IMG/VR virus record: IMGVR_UViG_3300037563_000105
Location: 1 to 21,636 of that record
Reading direction: 5' to 3' (one strand)
Source of the DNA: a virus
DNA length: 21,636 bases
Below the pieces are notes generated by a model. The model was given only the letters and a program-made list of their open reading frames with translations. It ran no database searches and was not told the DNA's origin. The position numbers and the translations under genes were made by a program. Shown here piece after piece: positions 3,357-21,094 of this stretch. Numbering within the stretch: the stretch's first letter is position 1; the number at the start of each line of letters is the position of its first letter.

Positions 3357-3734
3357 CTACTTCTTTGTCGTTGTGGCTTGTTCGATCATCTCTGCTTGAA
3401 CATCGTCCCAACGCTCATTTCTTTCGGCGGCATCCTTTTCAATAAGAGGGCCATATTCCAGCCAAAGACCGGCCCCGCGCATCCAGTTTCGGAACCGAAA
3501 GCAAACCTCTTGCTGGCCGCATTGGAATGACGTGGTTGCTCCGTGGGCGGTATGGGGGGTTGCGTAAAAGTAGAAATCGTGGAAAAGTTGGGAAATAACA
3601 ATTCTCCCATGAGCAGATTTGACCACTTCCTCAAGGGCTGTGTTGAATTCCTTTTGACGGCTGACATTTAAAAACTCGGCAATCTCCGCTTTCTTCGCTT
3701 CTGCGGGATTCAGCGTTTGACTAGGTTGCACCAT
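3357..3734 (-). CDS. Bbp19-like small head-module protein
   Basis: 125 residues, starting at an ATG inside the end of the portal gene (14-bp overlap), which implies coupled translation. After a charged helical N-terminus (1-40), the segment SAHGRIVISQLFHDFYFYAT through FQCGQQEVCFRFRNWM matches the 'sp.GkrVL.dL......t.F..Gqr.vg.RI...l' pattern of the small Bbp19-type proteins found between portal and scaffold in BPP-1-like phages. Its biochemical role is not established for the family. The C-terminus is charged and ends in TTTKK. The identification comes from pattern plus position. Confidence 0.6.
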   Translation of the reverse strand: MVQPSQTLNPAEAKKAEIAEFLNVSRQKEFNTALEEVVKSAHGRIVISQLFHDFYFYATPHTAHGATTSFQCGQQEVCFRFRNWMRGAGLWLEYGPLIEKDAAERNERWDDVQAEMIEQATTTKK

Positions 3735-5520
3735 TCCCTCCCTGTTGTTCCATTATTTTTTGCAAGAGATTCGAGTCACCGCCCGTTGATGCACCGCCTA
3801 GATTTTTGGCGGTTTCGGACATTGTTTTGGATTGTTCGGCGGCTTGTTGTTGCTGTTTATGTTTATTCATCAGGTCACGGATTTTAGCAAGCTGAGGCCC
3901 CGTATACATGAGTTTTGGCGGAAGGTTCAAAAGCTTCAAGGAATAATCCATCGCCTCATCGCCGTTGAGGGCTTCACTTCCTGGTTGTGCTTTAATCTGT
4001 GCCACTTGCCCAACAAGCCCGAGATGGGCATTCAAAGCGTTGATGTCGCTCTGCTTTAAGGCGATGGCGATTCGAGAAACGATATTCACTTGCAAATCAG
4101 CACCATGAATAATTTTTGGCGCAGGTGGGATAACCCGATCTTCGAGCATGAGCTTGTAGAGGTCTTTCCCCATGCGTTGGAGCCAATCAAAATTGTAGGC
4201 CCCAAATATTGGACCAAGAATACGGCTATCCTCTTGGACTCTTTGAAGGACTTCGGTTGCCGTCGGGGGCGTCTGTCTCTCGTCGTTTCCAAATCGCTTG
4301 AAAATATCACGGTGACAAATCTGCTCAATTTCATTAATGCACTTGTCGATGTATTCGTCGATGGGTTTCAGCATGGCCGGGTCGAGCTGGTAGATGGGGC
4401 CTATTTTTTTATTCGGCCCTACTCCGCCTGGAACCATCGTGAGAAAGTTAGGCGTCATACCAACGCCGTTGTTTGACACTCCCCCGCCTACCGATGGATC
4501 TGCTCCAATGGGAGGTTCGAGAAGTTTTTGCGCGGAGAATAGCCACATCTGAATCGACTTGAACATCCGATAGATGGGGGCCCTTGCCTTGGAGCCTGGG
4601 CATTCAACGCCATAGGCGTCAGTTGGTTGCCGGAATCTGCGTGAGGAATAAACCGGGAAGTAGGATGACCCTTCCTCACGGAGAATCTTGTGGCCTATGT
4701 TTTTACCGAGTTCGTAATAGTTCCACGAATAGTCGGCGTACTTAGAGTTGTACTTCGCCTTGAAATAATTGTACTCGGGGTTGGGGAAAATCATCATAAC
4801 TAAATCGACCCACTCTTCATGACGGAATGGAGCAAGCCATTGGGCCTGTAGATTCTCGGAGCAGTTATCTAACGTCACCTTGCCGTATTTGTCGGTGCAG
4901 AATTCAGAGATGACCTGACGAACCGGCTTGCGGAACATGTAACAGAAGGTGTCGGCCCATCCATGTTTATTGTTTGAAAGGTAGTATGTTCCGATTGGAA
5001 ACGTGGTAAACCTAACAAAGGTATCGTCATCCCGTTCCATCATCAAAGCGCCGGTTCCGTATCTTTCACATGACCTTATCGTCTTGGGAGCCTCTTGATA
5101 AAAGTTGGAATTCAAATAAATGTTCTGAGCCTTCTTGGAAATGGTGTGGAGGTATTGCCAAACTTCCGGTCTATCCATAACCTCGCTTTCTTCGTCCTCT
5201 AACCCATACCTCTGCCACGTTTGTGCGGAAGGAATAATTCCCTCTTGAAGCCCGGCATCCAAGTCGTCAAAGGCCAATGTGTGTCGGCTCGAAATGAATT
5301 TATCTGTAACGAATTGAGGAAACCCCGCCTGGTACATATTATTTTGAACCATGTGGGGGTCGAGGATGGATTCAATTTCGGCCCAAAGATATTCGTAGGG
5401 GGAACGGTCGCTTTGCATCCGAGAGCGAAGCTGTTCCATGAGAATGTATTTATCGACGTTCCTGGTAGTTACAGGCCCCTGAGTTTCGGGGTAGGCTTGC
5501 ATTACGAATGGGTCACTCAA
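3721..5520 (-). CDS. Portal protein (podovirus head-to-tail connector)
   Basis: 599 residues. Long podovirus-type portal of the 'bacteriophage head to tail connecting protein' family: it forms the ring at one capsid vertex through which DNA enters and leaves and to which the tail attaches. Seen: an N-terminal LMEQLRSRMQSDRSPYEYLWAEIESILDP segment typical of the family start, a DDLDAGLQEGIIPSAQTW region (near 84-101), an aromatic-rich core, the PIYRMFKSIQMWLFSAQKLLEPP helix (near 317-339) and the TATEVLQRVQED helix (near 423-434). The C-terminal tail is Gln-rich. The start is a TTG at 5520 behind AAAGGGGATAACCG, overlapping the upstream stop by 8 bp; the next in-frame ATG (5502) has no ribosome site. 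Confidence 0.85.
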   Translation of the reverse strand: MSDPFVMQAYPETQGPVTTRNVDKYILMEQLRSRMQSDRSPYEYLWAEIESILDPHMVQNNMYQAGFPQFVTDKFISSRHTLAFDDLDAGLQEGIIPSAQTWQRYGLEDEESEVMDRPEVWQYLHTISKKAQNIYLNSNFYQEAPKTIRSCERYGTGALMMERDDDTFVRFTTFPIGTYYLSNNKHGWADTFCYMFRKPVRQVISEFCTDKYGKVTLDNCSENLQAQWLAPFRHEEWVDLVMMIFPNPEYNYFKAKYNSKYADYSWNYYELGKNIGHKILREEGSSYFPVYSSRRFRQPTDAYGVECPGSKARAPIYRMFKSIQMWLFSAQKLLEPPIGADPSVGGGVSNNGVGMTPNFLTMVPGGVGPNKKIGPIYQLDPAMLKPIDEYIDKCINEIEQICHRDIFKRFGNDERQTPPTATEVLQRVQEDSRILGPIFGAYNFDWLQRMGKDLYKLMLEDRVIPPAPKIIHGADLQVNIVSRIAIALKQSDINALNAHLGLVGQVAQIKAQPGSEALNGDEAMDYSLKLLNLPPKLMYTGPQLAKIRDLMNKHKQQQQAAEQSKTMSETAKNLGGASTGGDSNLLQKIMEQQGGNGAT

Positions 5521-6412: not shown

Positions 6413-7984
6413 CTATTTGTGGCCTCCAAATAGCGACGCAAACAGCCCCTTAGCCCCTACAGGCTGTGCTTTCTGATTATGATATTCCCCAAGTGCGTCC
6501 ATGTCCATGCAAGATTTCATCCCCCCGGTGGTTCCCATCTGCTCCCCTGATATTTCCTCGTTTGGTCGGTCGTCCATCAGGAACGTCATTAGGAACGACT
6601 CCCATCTGTCAGGCGAACGGCCCAACCTGAGTTTCACAATATCCTTCGGTTCACAGGCCATTTTATCGCCTTTTATGATATACCGGGTCGCCAAGGCTTC
6701 CTCTTTGAGCAGGTCATCGGGCGGAAGTTTACCGCCCTGCTTTACCCATTGAGCCCCTTTCCAGTAAAGCTCGGTTCTGAGATTGGCGAAGAAATCATTT
6801 GCGGCCTTCCCATTCATCTTGGCCCCTTGAGCCATAATCCCGAGGGTTCGACAGGCTTCCATCACCGCATTGGCGTATCCGCCCGTGGCGTCGAAGAACC
6901 CCCACCGAGTCCCCTTATCGTTCATCAGGGGTTGGATCTTGCGAGCCTGGTTAAATCCAATTTGCGGGTCTGAGAGAGGCACTTCGATTTTCGTTTGAGG
7001 AAAACACATCTTCCCCTGCCTGATCGTGGCATACGTTGAGTCGTTGCCCTCGTAGGCCACGTCCACCCCGCAATAGGGTTGCCACTCGGCGTAAACGTTC
7101 CATGGTAATTCCAATGCCATCGCCCTCTCGATATCGTCTATCCCAAGGAAAGCGTTGAAATCCTGTGAAGGAAATTCCCCGAGAATATAAACCTGCACAA
7201 ACGGGTCATCCCGCCCGAGAGCCTTTATCATCGACCGTGCCCACTCGATGTCAATTCGAGGGCATCGGTTTGGGTCGTCCGGGTCGCCGGTCATTCTCAC
7301 CGGGCCCCTACCCCCGTTCCAGAGCGCCTTGAGTTTCGTCGCCGCCGCATACAGTGGGCCTGACTTGTGGGTTGGGTTCCCGCCTTGCAAAACTTTCATG
7401 AACCCGCCCGGAACAGGGTTCGCCAGCGTTCGCTCCAAAGCGTAGAGAACGGAAATTGGAACACCGGAGGATTCGTCGATGAGGGATAAGCTATTCTTAC
7501 TGTGGTGTCCCGCCAACCCGAGAGCCCCCGTTGGCGAGTTTGGGTCCGACGTACTCTTGGCGTCCCAAGTGCGTTTCTCAAAAAACCATGTGGCCGACGC
7601 ATGCTTCATGAAAATCTTTTCCGTCTGCCACTTCAACAACTGGTCAAGTAATGGAGCAACCTTAATGAGCTTCGCCAATTCCGGCCAGAGGTTCATCTCC
7701 ATGTTCTTCCCGTCAATGGCGGTCGCTATACCCTTGGGATGGTCCCACGGATTGGAGCCTCCACGGACAGTCATGAAATGGAGAATCGCCTCGGCCTCTA
7801 TACGAGTCTTTCCCGTTCCGGTCGCTCCAATGAGCCCGACGCGAGACATGGTGGGATCAACAAAGTCTTTCCAAAACTGCATCTGAGCGCCGTCGTAGGT
7901 CGTTCCGAACATCTCATGCCCGAAATCCCAAGGATTGTCGGCCCACCGTTCGGCGTTCTTGGTTAGCTCGGAGAATGGGTTCAA
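6413..7984 (-). CDS. terL: Terminase large subunit (packaging ATPase and nuclease)
   Basis: Packages DNA into the prohead through the portal. Counting from the TTG at 8002 (529 residues), the Walker A is GATGTGKT (59-66) and Walker B LSLIDE with D176-E177. The RNase H-like nuclease shows GVDVAYEGNDSTYATI with D314, then GFFDATGG with D371, and a GRSPDRWESF motif supplying the third acid (D465). All catalytic elements are present and the length is normal. I place the start at the TTG at 7984 (523 residues), because TTGGGAGGAA at 8002 reads as its ribosome site and TTGA overlaps the upstream stop (TGA, 7983-7981). The TTG at 8002 itself is the alternative; choosing it would only add six residues. 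Confidence 0.9.
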   Translation of the reverse strand: MNPFSELTKNAERWADNPWDFGHEMFGTTYDGAQMQFWKDFVDPTMSRVGLIGATGTGKTRIEAEAILHFMTVRGGSNPWDHPKGIATAIDGKNMEMNLWPELAKLIKVAPLLDQLLKWQTEKIFMKHASATWFFEKRTWDAKSTSDPNSPTGALGLAGHHSKNSLSLIDESSGVPISVLYALERTLANPVPGGFMKVLQGGNPTHKSGPLYAAATKLKALWNGGRGPVRMTGDPDDPNRCPRIDIEWARSMIKALGRDDPFVQVYILGEFPSQDFNAFLGIDDIERAMALELPWNVYAEWQPYCGVDVAYEGNDSTYATIRQGKMCFPQTKIEVPLSDPQIGFNQARKIQPLMNDKGTRWGFFDATGGYANAVMEACRTLGIMAQGAKMNGKAANDFFANLRTELYWKGAQWVKQGGKLPPDDLLKEEALATRYIIKGDKMACEPKDIVKLRLGRSPDRWESFLMTFLMDDRPNEEISGEQMGTTGGMKSCMDMDALGEYHNQKAQPVGAKGLFASLFGGHK

Positions 7985-8226
7985 ACGGGCAGTTCCTCCC
8001 AATCAGGGGCAATAACATCATCTGGATCTGGCGACCACGGGGCTTGACGCTCGGGAGTTTTCAGTAAGATAAATTTCTTTTCTGGCATTTCTTCGATAGG
8101 GACTTGATGGTCAACCACCTGCACGCGAACATTCACCACCCAAATATACGTCCCTTCTGGCCATTTTGGGCGTCTTAATTTAAAACCATGATTAACCATT
8201 CCAAATGATGCGCTTACGAAATTCAT
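7981..8226 (-). CDS. Tad2-like (DUF2829) candidate anti-defence protein
   Basis: 81 residues. The pattern fits the DUF2829/Tad2 family: an N-terminal 'MnF..A......G.KLRRPKW' (residues 1-22), a YIWVVN strand (27-32), then KFILLKT (51-57) and a C-terminal 'W.PDPDDVIAPDWEEL' (64-79) ending in the near-invariant DW. Tad2 proteins of other phages are small oligomeric sponges that bind the cyclic ADP-ribose-type signal of Thoeris defence, and relatives bind other nucleotide signals. Family length is about 80-100 residues, so this is full length. Its ATG overlaps the small-terminase stop (ATGA) and its stop overlaps the large-terminase start, so it is made with the packaging proteins, an unexpected place. 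The family call is by eye; ligand and activity are unknown. Confidence 0.55.
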   Translation of the reverse strand: MNFVSASFGMVNHGFKLRRPKWPEGTYIWVVNVRVQVVDHQVPIEEMPEKKFILLKTPERQAPWSPDPDDVIAPDWEELPV

Positions 8227-8822
8227 ATCGGGTCAACCTCATTAGTCGCTTCCTTAGGAACCTCCTGCGCATCTACCACCGTCTGCGCCACCACCGTCCT
8301 CGCCGCCCGACGCGCATTCATCTCATCCAGCACCTTCCCCCAATCCAACCCCCCAGCTTCATCCGACTTCGAGCCGTACCGCCCCGGCGCATGTTTCTCC
8401 GCCAACTTCCACCGAGCCTCGATTCTCAACTTCTGCGACATAGCTTCCGCCGGCGTAAACGCCTGACTATCGGCAATCGTGACCGCCTGTTCCACCATGG
8501 CTTGGGCCCCCATAGCCTCGGCCTCTACCAGAGCGTCTTTAAACTCCCTCGACTTGCGCTTCCACTTTCTGATCGTCCCCATGCTGATCCCGTACTGGCT
8601 TATGACCACCGTCAGCATCGTTCCTTCGGCCACCCTGGCAATGACTATCGCCGCCACCCTTGGGTCGTATGGCGTCGTTTTAAGCCACCCACGCTCAGTC
8701 TGCGCGGTTAGCTTGGCATTATATTCCACTGGGTCAGAGAGCGGGTCGTTCCCGCCCGTTCCCCCAACCACCTCAGGGGCCACCGCCACATCATCATCCA
8801 TTCTTTGTAGCGCAGTTCCCAT
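8223..8822 (-). CDS. terS: Terminase small subunit (Sf6-like)
   Basis: 199 residues. It recognises the packaging start site on DNA and hands it to the large terminase. Residues 50-92 hold a helix-turn-helix (DPRVAAIVIARVAEGTML, then VISQYGISMGTIRKWKRKS), and residues 93-150 match the 'F..al..A...ga.a....a..ia........e......kl....r.w.a.k..P..YG.k' pattern of Sf6-like small terminases, here ending RWKLAEKHAPGRYGSKSD. The N- and C-terminal tails are variable. The ATG at 8822 has AGGA eight bases upstream; the stop forms an ATGA overlap with the next gene. The zinc ribbon gene upstream overlaps its first 29 bp. Confidence 0.85.
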   Translation of the reverse strand: MGTALQRMDDDVAVAPEVVGGTGGNDPLSDPVEYNAKLTAQTERGWLKTTPYDPRVAAIVIARVAEGTMLTVVISQYGISMGTIRKWKRKSREFKDALVEAEAMGAQAMVEQAVTIADSQAFTPAEAMSQKLRIEARWKLAEKHAPGRYGSKSDEAGGLDWGKVLDEMNARRAARTVVAQTVVDAQEVPKEATNEVDPI

Positions 8823-8967
8823 TTATCCATCCTCGGAAATCTATCACCCTCACCATATCCCCATCGCATTGCGCCCCCGCCGGGCACTCCGGCTCCTTCG
8901 CCCCCACATCCTGCCACTCTTCCTTGCGGGAGCCGCATCGGTCGCATTCGTAGGTATATATCGGCAC
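8794..8967 (-). CDS. FmdB-like zinc ribbon protein
   Basis: 57 residues starting at a GTG: MPIYTYECDRCG is the classic opening of FmdB/CxxC-CxxC zinc ribbon proteins. Cys8 and Cys11 form the first pair; the second is irregular, ECPAGAQC, with five residues between Cys28 and Cys34 instead of two. Such proteins are presumed to bind zinc and act as small regulators or adaptors; no enzymatic role is known. The frame is open to a TTG at 9021 behind GGAGGGG, which would add a hydrophobic 18-residue extension; I prefer the GTG because the family begins there, though its ribosome site is weak. It is the first gene of the leftward packaging operon. Confidence 0.65.
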   Translation of the reverse strand: MPIYTYECDRCGSRKEEWQDVGAKEPECPAGAQCDGDMVRVIDFRGWINGNCATKNG

Positions 8968-9229
8968 GGGGCCATCATACCACCCATCCAAGCACACACG
9001 CAACAACAACCACCATAACAACTAGCTACCCCTCCGCCTTATGCAAAATCTATTTCTTGGGAGAGAGGTTGGTGGTGTGGTGTAGCGCTGTAGTTTCAGC
9101 CCCCCCCACCCGGTCGTTCTCATATAAAGACCGCTTCGCCTGTCGTTTGCCGAGCGTTTGATTTGTCGTGTCGGTTACTAATGACTAGGCTTGACTAAGG
9201 CGCCGGCCGCGGGCGGTAGTGTGCCGACC

Positions 9230-13030: not shown

Positions 13031-13276
13031 ATGAAAAATTGCAAATCAGAAAAACATTGGGACTGCACCGACCTTCGCGGAGACTGCTCCTACCTTCGCG
13101 GAGACTGCTCCGGCCTGAGCGGGGACTGCACCGACCTTCGCGGAGACTGCTCCGGCCTGAGCGGGCTCTGCACCGGCCTTCGCGGAGACTGCTCCTACCT
13201 TCGCGGAGACTGCTCCGGCCTGAGCGGGGACTGCACCGACCTTCGCGGAGACTGCTCCGGCCTGACGAGCCGGTAA
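13031..13276 (+). CDS. Heptapeptide-repeat protein (DCSxLRG units)
   Basis: 81 residues; the ATG at 13031 follows GAGGAGAGAAAA. After a short head (MKNCKSEKHW) the protein is ten units of seven residues, consensus D-C-[ST]-x-L-[RS]-G with x = Asp, Tyr or Gly, ending GLTSR. It resembles the pentapeptide-like DCSGLRGDCSGL proteins seen in many environmental phage genomes, whose role is unknown. Ten regularly spaced cysteines could bind metal or form disulfides. A true pentapeptide beta-helix would need a 5-residue period, which this does not have. The stop codon lies in the loop of the first hairpin of a structured intergenic element. Confidence 0.6.
   Translation: MKNCKSEKHWDCTDLRGDCSYLRGDCSGLSGDCTDLRGDCSGLSGLCTGLRGDCSYLRGDCSGLSGDCTDLRGDCSGLTSR
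13061..13270 (+). repeat. Ten 21-bp tandem repeats in the order A-BCAC-D-BCAC
   Basis: Units: A (CTDLRG), B (CSYLRG), C (CSGLSG), D (CTGLRG with a leading Leu). The order is A B C A C D B C A C. The two BCAC blocks (13082-13165 and 13187-13270) are identical at nucleotide level except for the end of the last unit, indicating recent duplication of an 84-bp block. Confidence 0.8.
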
Positions 13277-20554: not shown

Positions 20555-21094
20555 CTAAACTTCGTTTCCCCAAGAATCCCAACCGTCTCTTTTATTTCTA
20601 GCAAAAAGCTCTATTCTTTCCGAATATGGACTTATGGATTCAATTAGTTCATAGGTTTTGACTGGTTTTTTACTGTGCTTAACCGGGGTATAGTATTGTG
20701 AAGTTAGGGAATATCTGCCATCTCCCATTTTTAATCCACCTTTATACCCAAAAAGAAGGTGTTGTGTCGTATTTACAAACCAAGGGCCAACTCCTGCTGG
20801 TTTATTGTATGTCAAAATATTTAAATATTTAAAACCCCATTTTTCCATAACATGAAAAGCATCGTGTAGTATTTTATTTGTTGCCCACAACCACAAGTGG
20901 GCCTCTTCGCCTGAAATAGATGGAACCGGAAGATTCAATATTTCCTCAATCTTCATTGTTGGATATGGCACAGGAACGGCTTCGCCAACTTTATAGACTC
21001 TCCCTGGCCTAGTGTCCTTTCCCTTACCCATCTTCCCCATTTCCCATGGAGGGTCGGCGTAAATAACATTGTATTTTTTAGTAGGAAATTCCAT
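20555..21094 (-). CDS. MT-A70-type DNA adenine methyltransferase
   Basis: 179 residues, start ATG behind GAAGGGGGTTAAAA. The catalytic motif DPPW lies at 14-17 (YNVIYADPPWEMG). Further family signs: a substrate/AdoMet region (MKIEEILNLPVPSISGEEAH, then LWLWATNKIL), LNILTYNKPAGVGPWFVNTTQHLLFG (FG of the GxFG-like motif) and PVKTYELIESISPYSERIELFA, the usual C-terminal motif. MT-A70 phage enzymes transfer a methyl group from AdoMet to adenine N6 and often protect phage DNA from restriction. Orphan, as no nuclease is adjacent. The upstream small gene overlaps its start by 17 bp. Confidence 0.85.
   Translation of the reverse strand: MEFPTKKYNVIYADPPWEMGKMGKGKDTRPGRVYKVGEAVPVPYPTMKIEEILNLPVPSISGEEAHLWLWATNKILHDAFHVMEKWGFKYLNILTYNKPAGVGPWFVNTTQHLLFGYKGGLKMGDGRYSLTSQYYTPVKHSKKPVKTYELIESISPYSERIELFARNKRDGWDSWGNEV

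Follow-up and report, generated by a model that had tools for sequence, protein, structure and literature searches.

Proteins of the Tad2 family sequester bacterial immune signals. SPO1 Tad2 (gp34.65 of a Bacillus phage; PDB 8sme/8smf/8smg and 8wje) binds gcADPR, and ModTad2 from a Myroides odoratus prophage (PDB 9eib and 8v3e) binds His-ADPR; among their relatives, AcrIIA7 (PDB 8kbi/8kbk) is seen with cADPR and cGG and SptTad2 (PDB 8wjd) with cGG. The ligand pocket of Tad2 is made up of the β1-β2 loop, the β3-β4 loop, β4, the β4-α3 loop, and α3 (PMC12043709). As for where such genes lie, a DUF2829 gene between the minor head protein and scaffold genes of phage SpaA1 was tabulated in 2012 (PMC3398947). 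In the current study, we followed up an earlier note on a 21,636-nt stretch of viral DNA (IMG/VR record IMGVR_UViG_3300037563_000105; the whole stretch is called the window here) and analyzed by computation a Tad2-like ORF, tad2, that lies between the two terminase genes.

Results

The 81-residue ORF that the earlier note had reported exists and lies on the minus strand, as do terS and terL (Table 1); the plus strand across the same positions is interrupted by stops. Comparison with the DUF2829 profile, which that note had proposed as a check, bore out the family: the sole Pfam match of the product is PF11195 (Tad2-like, formerly DUF2829), at 39.6 bits (E 8e-10) against a curated cutoff of 25 bits, and the alignment takes in profile positions 1 to 72 of 73. 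When the whole record was searched with PF11195, tad2 was the single match (E 3.2e-11), and among 14 control genomes a match came up in just one, so the assignment is not a product of chance. The product matched PHROGs families of unknown function weakly, and it had no match in NCBIfam or in PADLOC, which models defense rather than counterdefense proteins. A phmmer search of the PDB was marginal (best E 0.03, to Tad2 8v3e), and a profile of seven relatives reached the solved Tad2/AcrIIA7 chains at E 2e-16 or better.

The N-terminal motif of the product reads G-F-K-L-R-R-P-K-W and the C-terminal motif W-S-P-D-P-D-D-V-I-A-P-D-W; the pattern described earlier is present, except that its N-terminal half, given as G-K-L-R-R-P-x-W, had omitted one residue. 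R19, W22, W64, D70, and D75, all invariant in the family, and the near-invariant W76 are kept in both of our alignments, one of which (A6) exaggerates how conserved the loop is, having been collected with the pattern GWNGKGM, while the other (A8) was rebuilt from tblastn matches found without the loop pattern. On sequence grounds, then, the product is a divergent new member of the known Tad2 family, an assignment that we regard as solid.

The product is also predicted to have the Tad2 fold (AlphaFold2, single chain; pLDDT 88, pTM 0.73). The best 22 Foldseek matches of this model in the PDB were all Tad2/AcrIIA7 chains at a probability of 1.00 (ModTad2 and SPO1 Tad2, each both apo and bound to its ligand, His-ADPR or gcADPR, respectively; AcrIIA7, both apo and in complexes with cADPR and cGG; and SptTad2 bound to cGG); the probability then dropped to 0.51 for the following match, and a viral structure library pointed to the same family. 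The structural comparison suggested in the earlier note thus gave confident matches solely to Tad2/AcrIIA7, although the model was built from a Tad2 alignment and the fold match is therefore not independent of homology.

It is in the pocket that the protein departs from its characterized relatives. The W-N-G-K-(G/N) loop between β1 and β2 is absent and W-P-E-G-T stands in its place, whereas the SPO1 Tad2, ModTad2, and AcrIIA7 chains all keep W-N-G-K. In the Tad2 of a diverged relative, L005 (see below), W-K-D-G-R replaces W-N-G-K-G and the second loop reads P-T-Q; outside the window/L005 lineage, W-N-G is kept in 23 of the 24 proteins of A8. As aligned, this lineage keeps the scaffold residues R, W, W, D, D, and W and has a rebuilt β1-β2 loop. 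The original reading of the protein as a Tad2 signal sponge of the Thoeris kind consequently stands as far as family (by profile) and predicted fold are concerned, but the named Thoeris ligand is not transferable, since most of the pocket-forming loop has been replaced.

Table 1. tad2, its neighbors in the late module, and other features of the window
Feature	Position	Strand	Basis or remark
tad2, Tad2-like (PF11195/DUF2829) ORF, 81 aa	7981–8226	minus	ATG at 8226, stop TGA at 7983–7981
β1-β2 loop region of its product, R19–T26, RPKWPEGT (family R-x-G-W-N-G-K-G)	8149–8172	minus	Alignments A6 and A8; secondary structure of the model
β4-α3 region of its product, W64–I72, WSPDPDDVI (family W-L-A-S-Q-T-D-V-L)	8011–8037	minus	Alignments A6 and A8; secondary structure of the model
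Putative Shine-Dalgarno-like GAGGT, within terS	8236–8240	minus	Sequence read; 9 nt before tad2 ATG
Putative Shine-Dalgarno-like GGAGG, within tad2	7995–7999	minus	Sequence read; 10 nt before terL TTG
terS, terminase small subunit, Sf6-like	8223–8822	minus	PF20901 (Sf6_terminase) E 1.9e-16; phrog_1482 E 6.4e-16
terL, terminase large subunit, 523 aa	6413–7984	minus	phrog_2 E 1.8e-16; start taken as TTG 7984
Zinc-ribbon protein	8794–9021	minus	Zn_ribbon_8 E 1.6e-8; directly upstream of terS and overlapping it
Portal/head-tail adaptor, downstream in the late module	3721–5520	minus	phrog_332 E 2.4e-74
Major capsid protein (MCP), late module	1413–2519	minus	phrog_212 E 2.1e-22
ORF, 232 aa	10939–11637	plus	LPD29 (large polyvalent protein-associated domain) E 2e-16; CxxC pairs
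ORF, 213 aa	11801–12442	plus	Long Ala/Tyr/Asp tract (YAADAAYAADAA); DNA repeat periods 9–24; no Pfam match
ORF, 81 aa, of 21-nt repeats	13031–13276	plus	C-x-x-L-R/S-G-D-C units; 63-nt higher-order repeat; Pfam matches (MSG, ShK) probably from the cysteine-rich repeats
ORF, 183 aa	13696–14247	plus	33-nt tandem repeat, about 5.5 copies; A-x-A-E-Y-x-K-V units; no Pfam match
MT-A70-type DNA methyltransferase	20555–21094	minus	E 1e-26; may help this phage evade restriction

The interlocking of tad2 with both terminase genes, as first described, is real: the terS stop and tad2 start share the four nucleotides ATGA (8226–8223), and the tad2 stop and terL start share TTGA (7984–7981) if terL begins at the TTG. 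We adopted that start because it aligns with the ATG of the L005 TerL and has GGAGG upstream. Given these stop/start overlaps, terS, tad2, and terL are likely coexpressed, in agreement with the earlier idea that the protein is made with the packaging genes, cotranscription being read from the tight overlaps. Around the operon, sites resembling promoters or terminators were no commoner than in shuffled sequences, and we claim no late promoter.

An identical copy of tad2 occurs in IMG/VR contig 3300048771_000012, and a further contig (L004) has the same terL and is cut before tad2. L005 (IMGVR_UViG_3300020125_000109, 47 kb) is a diverged relative of the window phage (TerL 66%, portal 67%, MCP 77%, and TerS 51% identical), in which the terS-terL gap holds a 109-aa ORF, a Tad2-like gene (PF11195, 58.3 bits), and a 134-aa ORF. 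Tad2 is thus common to both genomes at this junction, unlike the two extra ORFs of L005, neither of which has a Pfam match. The 134-aa ORF (L005 positions 4585–4989, plus strand, between tad2 and terL) has a C-x-x-C...H-x-x-x-H-like stretch and looks like another cargo gene. In the tree, the two Tad2 proteins are sisters (support, 89/87); their branches are very long (6.1 changes per column for the window and 3.0 for L005), so the grouping may be long-branch attraction.

The base composition of tad2 sets it apart from its neighbors. Its GC content is 45.8% (GC3, 0.41), compared with 59.4% (0.69) for terS and 54.4% (0.65) for terL, and a value this low is reached by just 4.5% of 240-base segments of the late module. 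The 134-aa ORF of L005 has a GC content of 40.6% between neighbors at 54% and 52%. These values fit a terS-terL junction that accepts cargo genes, with the low-GC tad2 as one such gene inserted in the late operon, although Tad2, unlike the other ORFs, is present at this junction in both genomes.

Farther out, no Tad2-like ORF was found in the contig sequence of TerL relatives at 33 to 38% identity (L006, L007, L009, L010, L012, L112, L113, and L115), in which varied ORFs occupy the stretch upstream of terL; in a closer relative (L114; TerL 43% and portal 56% identical to those of the window), the contig ends inside terL. A tblastn search of annotated phages with the tad2 product gave nothing even at E 1, scans of viral contigs with single proteins and pairs returned only the same few contigs, and bacterial genome contigs scanned with the terL pair contained no relative. 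The seven-sequence alignment was too diverse to serve as a scan query.

The earlier note had treated a late location as unusual for a gene of this kind. This does not hold; in many phages, the neighbors of a Tad2-like gene include genes for TerL, portal, scaffold, or capsid proteins, lysis genes, or terS. Of the 24 annotated Tad2-like loci that we inspected, a hand-picked set that gives no estimate of frequency, about 12 are in or near genes for structure, packaging, or lysis. The gene is found between the MCP and tail tubular protein A in KMI6, between a head morphogenesis protein and the capsid region in phiAH14a, and between TerL/portal-like and capsid genes in Vibrio phage 1.205.O. It is upstream of terS in MalagasyRose, Curiosium, and a Latilactobacillus phage, between the Rz spanin gene and terS or the record end in the P22-like Kapi1, Louie, and Huey, near lysis genes in Pm86, and next to tail genes in vir215 and PP99. 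Elsewhere, it is near replication genes (XC38, PaBG, and ct76p945) or, at one further locus, beside the N4 vRNAP. In Escherichia phage Huey, two genes between Rz and the record end (3776–4276 and 4511–4891) are annotated as anti-CRISPR, and the first of these is Tad2-like.

Among 122 neighbors at 77 metagenomic Tad2 loci, six match TerL (phrog_2), and portal and capsid proteins are also present. Tad2 directly precedes terL in L063 and follows it in L047, while the order in L084 is terS-like, terL, Tad2, portal; these three loci rule out the notion that a Tad2 gene adjoining TerL is unique to the window phage. The L063 TerL has no significant BLAST similarity to that of the window, but it is 39% identical to the L047 TerL, so the side of terL on which Tad2 occurs varies even in a single TerL family. 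Proximity is weakly enriched overall: across 25 contigs in which TerL could be detected, 7 Tad2 genes are no more than 3 kb away from it, versus 3.5 expected at random (P 0.05). The location of tad2 is new in detail and recurrent in kind.

Discussion

We consider it probable that tad2, sitting as cargo between terS and terL in a podovirus-like late operon, is an accessory sponge gene whose product delays abortive infection by binding an immune nucleotide. The protein would be synthesized late in infection, alongside the terminase; by analogy with other Tad2 proteins, it would assemble into tetramers that take up a small nucleotide-type immune signal in stoichiometric amounts; and when capsid or packaging proteins set off the alarm in the cell, the signal would be bound and abortive infection would not be triggered. 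Because the W-N-G-K-G loop has been replaced, we only infer nucleotide sequestration, and the ligand probably differs from gcADPR or is bound differently. The observed footing of the sponge account is the family by profile, the predicted fold, the overlaps, the site shared with one diverged relative, the atypical GC content, and the changed loop. In its favor we counted the PF11195 matches in the window and L005, the Tad2-matching model, the retained residues, the L005 arrangement, the GC content, and the sister grouping; against it we counted the divergence of the loop in both lineage members, the long branches, the lack of a Tad2-like ORF in the contig sequence of the 33 to 38% TerL relatives, and the dependence of the fold match on homology.

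The strongest rival on function is that the Tad2 fold has been repurposed, so that the protein has ceased to sequester a signal and now assists in packaging or controls it, for instance as a partner of the terminase. Such a role would explain both the place of tad2 between terS and terL, which it overlaps, and the lost pocket loop, and the same site in L005 and the Tad2-like genes beside TerL in the unrelated lineages L063, L084, and L047 are in keeping with it. A packaging role is nonetheless disfavored, and we judge it unlikely: distant TerL relatives of the same group have no Tad2-like ORF in their contig sequence, the gene shifts from upstream (L063) to downstream (L047) of terL within one TerL family, its low GC content marks it as a latecomer, and other unrelated ORFs share the gap in L005. 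It is comparably improbable that the protein is a sponge of classical Thoeris specificity (for gcADPR or His-ADPR) in spite of its loop. The best structural match is indeed ModTad2 with His-ADPR, and no invariant W, D, or R residue has been lost; however, N-G-K-G in the β1-β2 loop and S-Q in the β4-α3 region are both replaced in the window, whereas SPO1 Tad2 keeps W-N-G-K and S-Q, AcrIIA7 keeps W-N-G-K-G and S-Q, and ModTad2 keeps W-N-G-K-G and S.

Two further explanations seem to us very improbable. AcrIIA7 contains DUF2829 (PMC6739104), the only domain that it shares with the window protein, and Foldseek matches its structures (8kbi/8kbk), which could suggest an anti-CRISPR of the AcrIIA7 type. 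Yet the PDB entry shows AcrIIA7 itself bound to cADPR and cGG, which points back to a sponge, the match to AcrIIA7 is weaker than that to Tad2, and no CRISPR host is known for the window phage. Nor do we give much credence to tad2 as a decaying cargo gene without current function: the long terminal branch and the lost pocket loop could be read in this way, but the reading frame is unbroken, its ribosome sites are good, and the invariant residues are in place, and the L005 homologue is likewise intact despite a divergence that leaves TerL only 66% identical.

Returning to the sponge account, Tad2 proteins of different phages bind different immune nucleotides, which makes a lineage with a rebuilt loop a candidate for a new specificity. 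One narrower proposal, which we offer tentatively and consider doubtful, is that a Tad2 sublineage with the re-made loop W-x-[D/E]-G-[T/R]-[Y/F]-[I/L]-W captures an immune signal with which Tad2 has so far not been linked and is synthesized in parallel with the terminase. Were this true, the sponge would peak just as sensors of late proteins would raise the alarm. More generally, the arrangement suggests an idea about timing, namely that a sponge may be produced at the same time as structural proteins that certain defenses detect, and the occurrence of Tad2-like genes near head, packaging, lysis, and tail genes in many unrelated phages argues against seeking counterdefense only in early regions.

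With SPO1 Tad2, the window protein shares its Pfam domain, predicted fold, size, and the R/W/W/D/D/W residues, but the two are only about 20% identical; SPO1 Tad2 has W-N-G-K and S-Q where the window has W-P-E-G and D-P, and the gcADPR bound by SPO1 Tad2 cannot be assumed to be the ligand of the window protein. ModTad2 is its best structural match (E 2.3e-4; TM 0.78 by query length) and, like it, has no Q in the second loop; the two are 24% identical, and ModTad2 keeps W-N-G-K-G-M. AcrIIA7 and SptTad2 agree with the window protein in domain and fold class, but they are longer (101 to 104 aa) and match it more weakly, albeit still at a Foldseek probability of 1.00. In genomic setting, SpaA1 (PMC3398947), phiAH14a, KMI6, and Vibrio phage 1.205.O also have a Tad2-like gene inside the head/packaging cluster, although in these phages it follows a portal, minor head, or capsid gene rather than separating terS from terL. 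The Tad2 of L005 has the same terS-terL site, the same late gene order, and a similarly replaced loop (W-K-D-G-R-F-L-W); it differs in being about 31 to 37% identical to the window protein, in the two further ORFs beside it in the gap, and in keeping the Q of the second loop.
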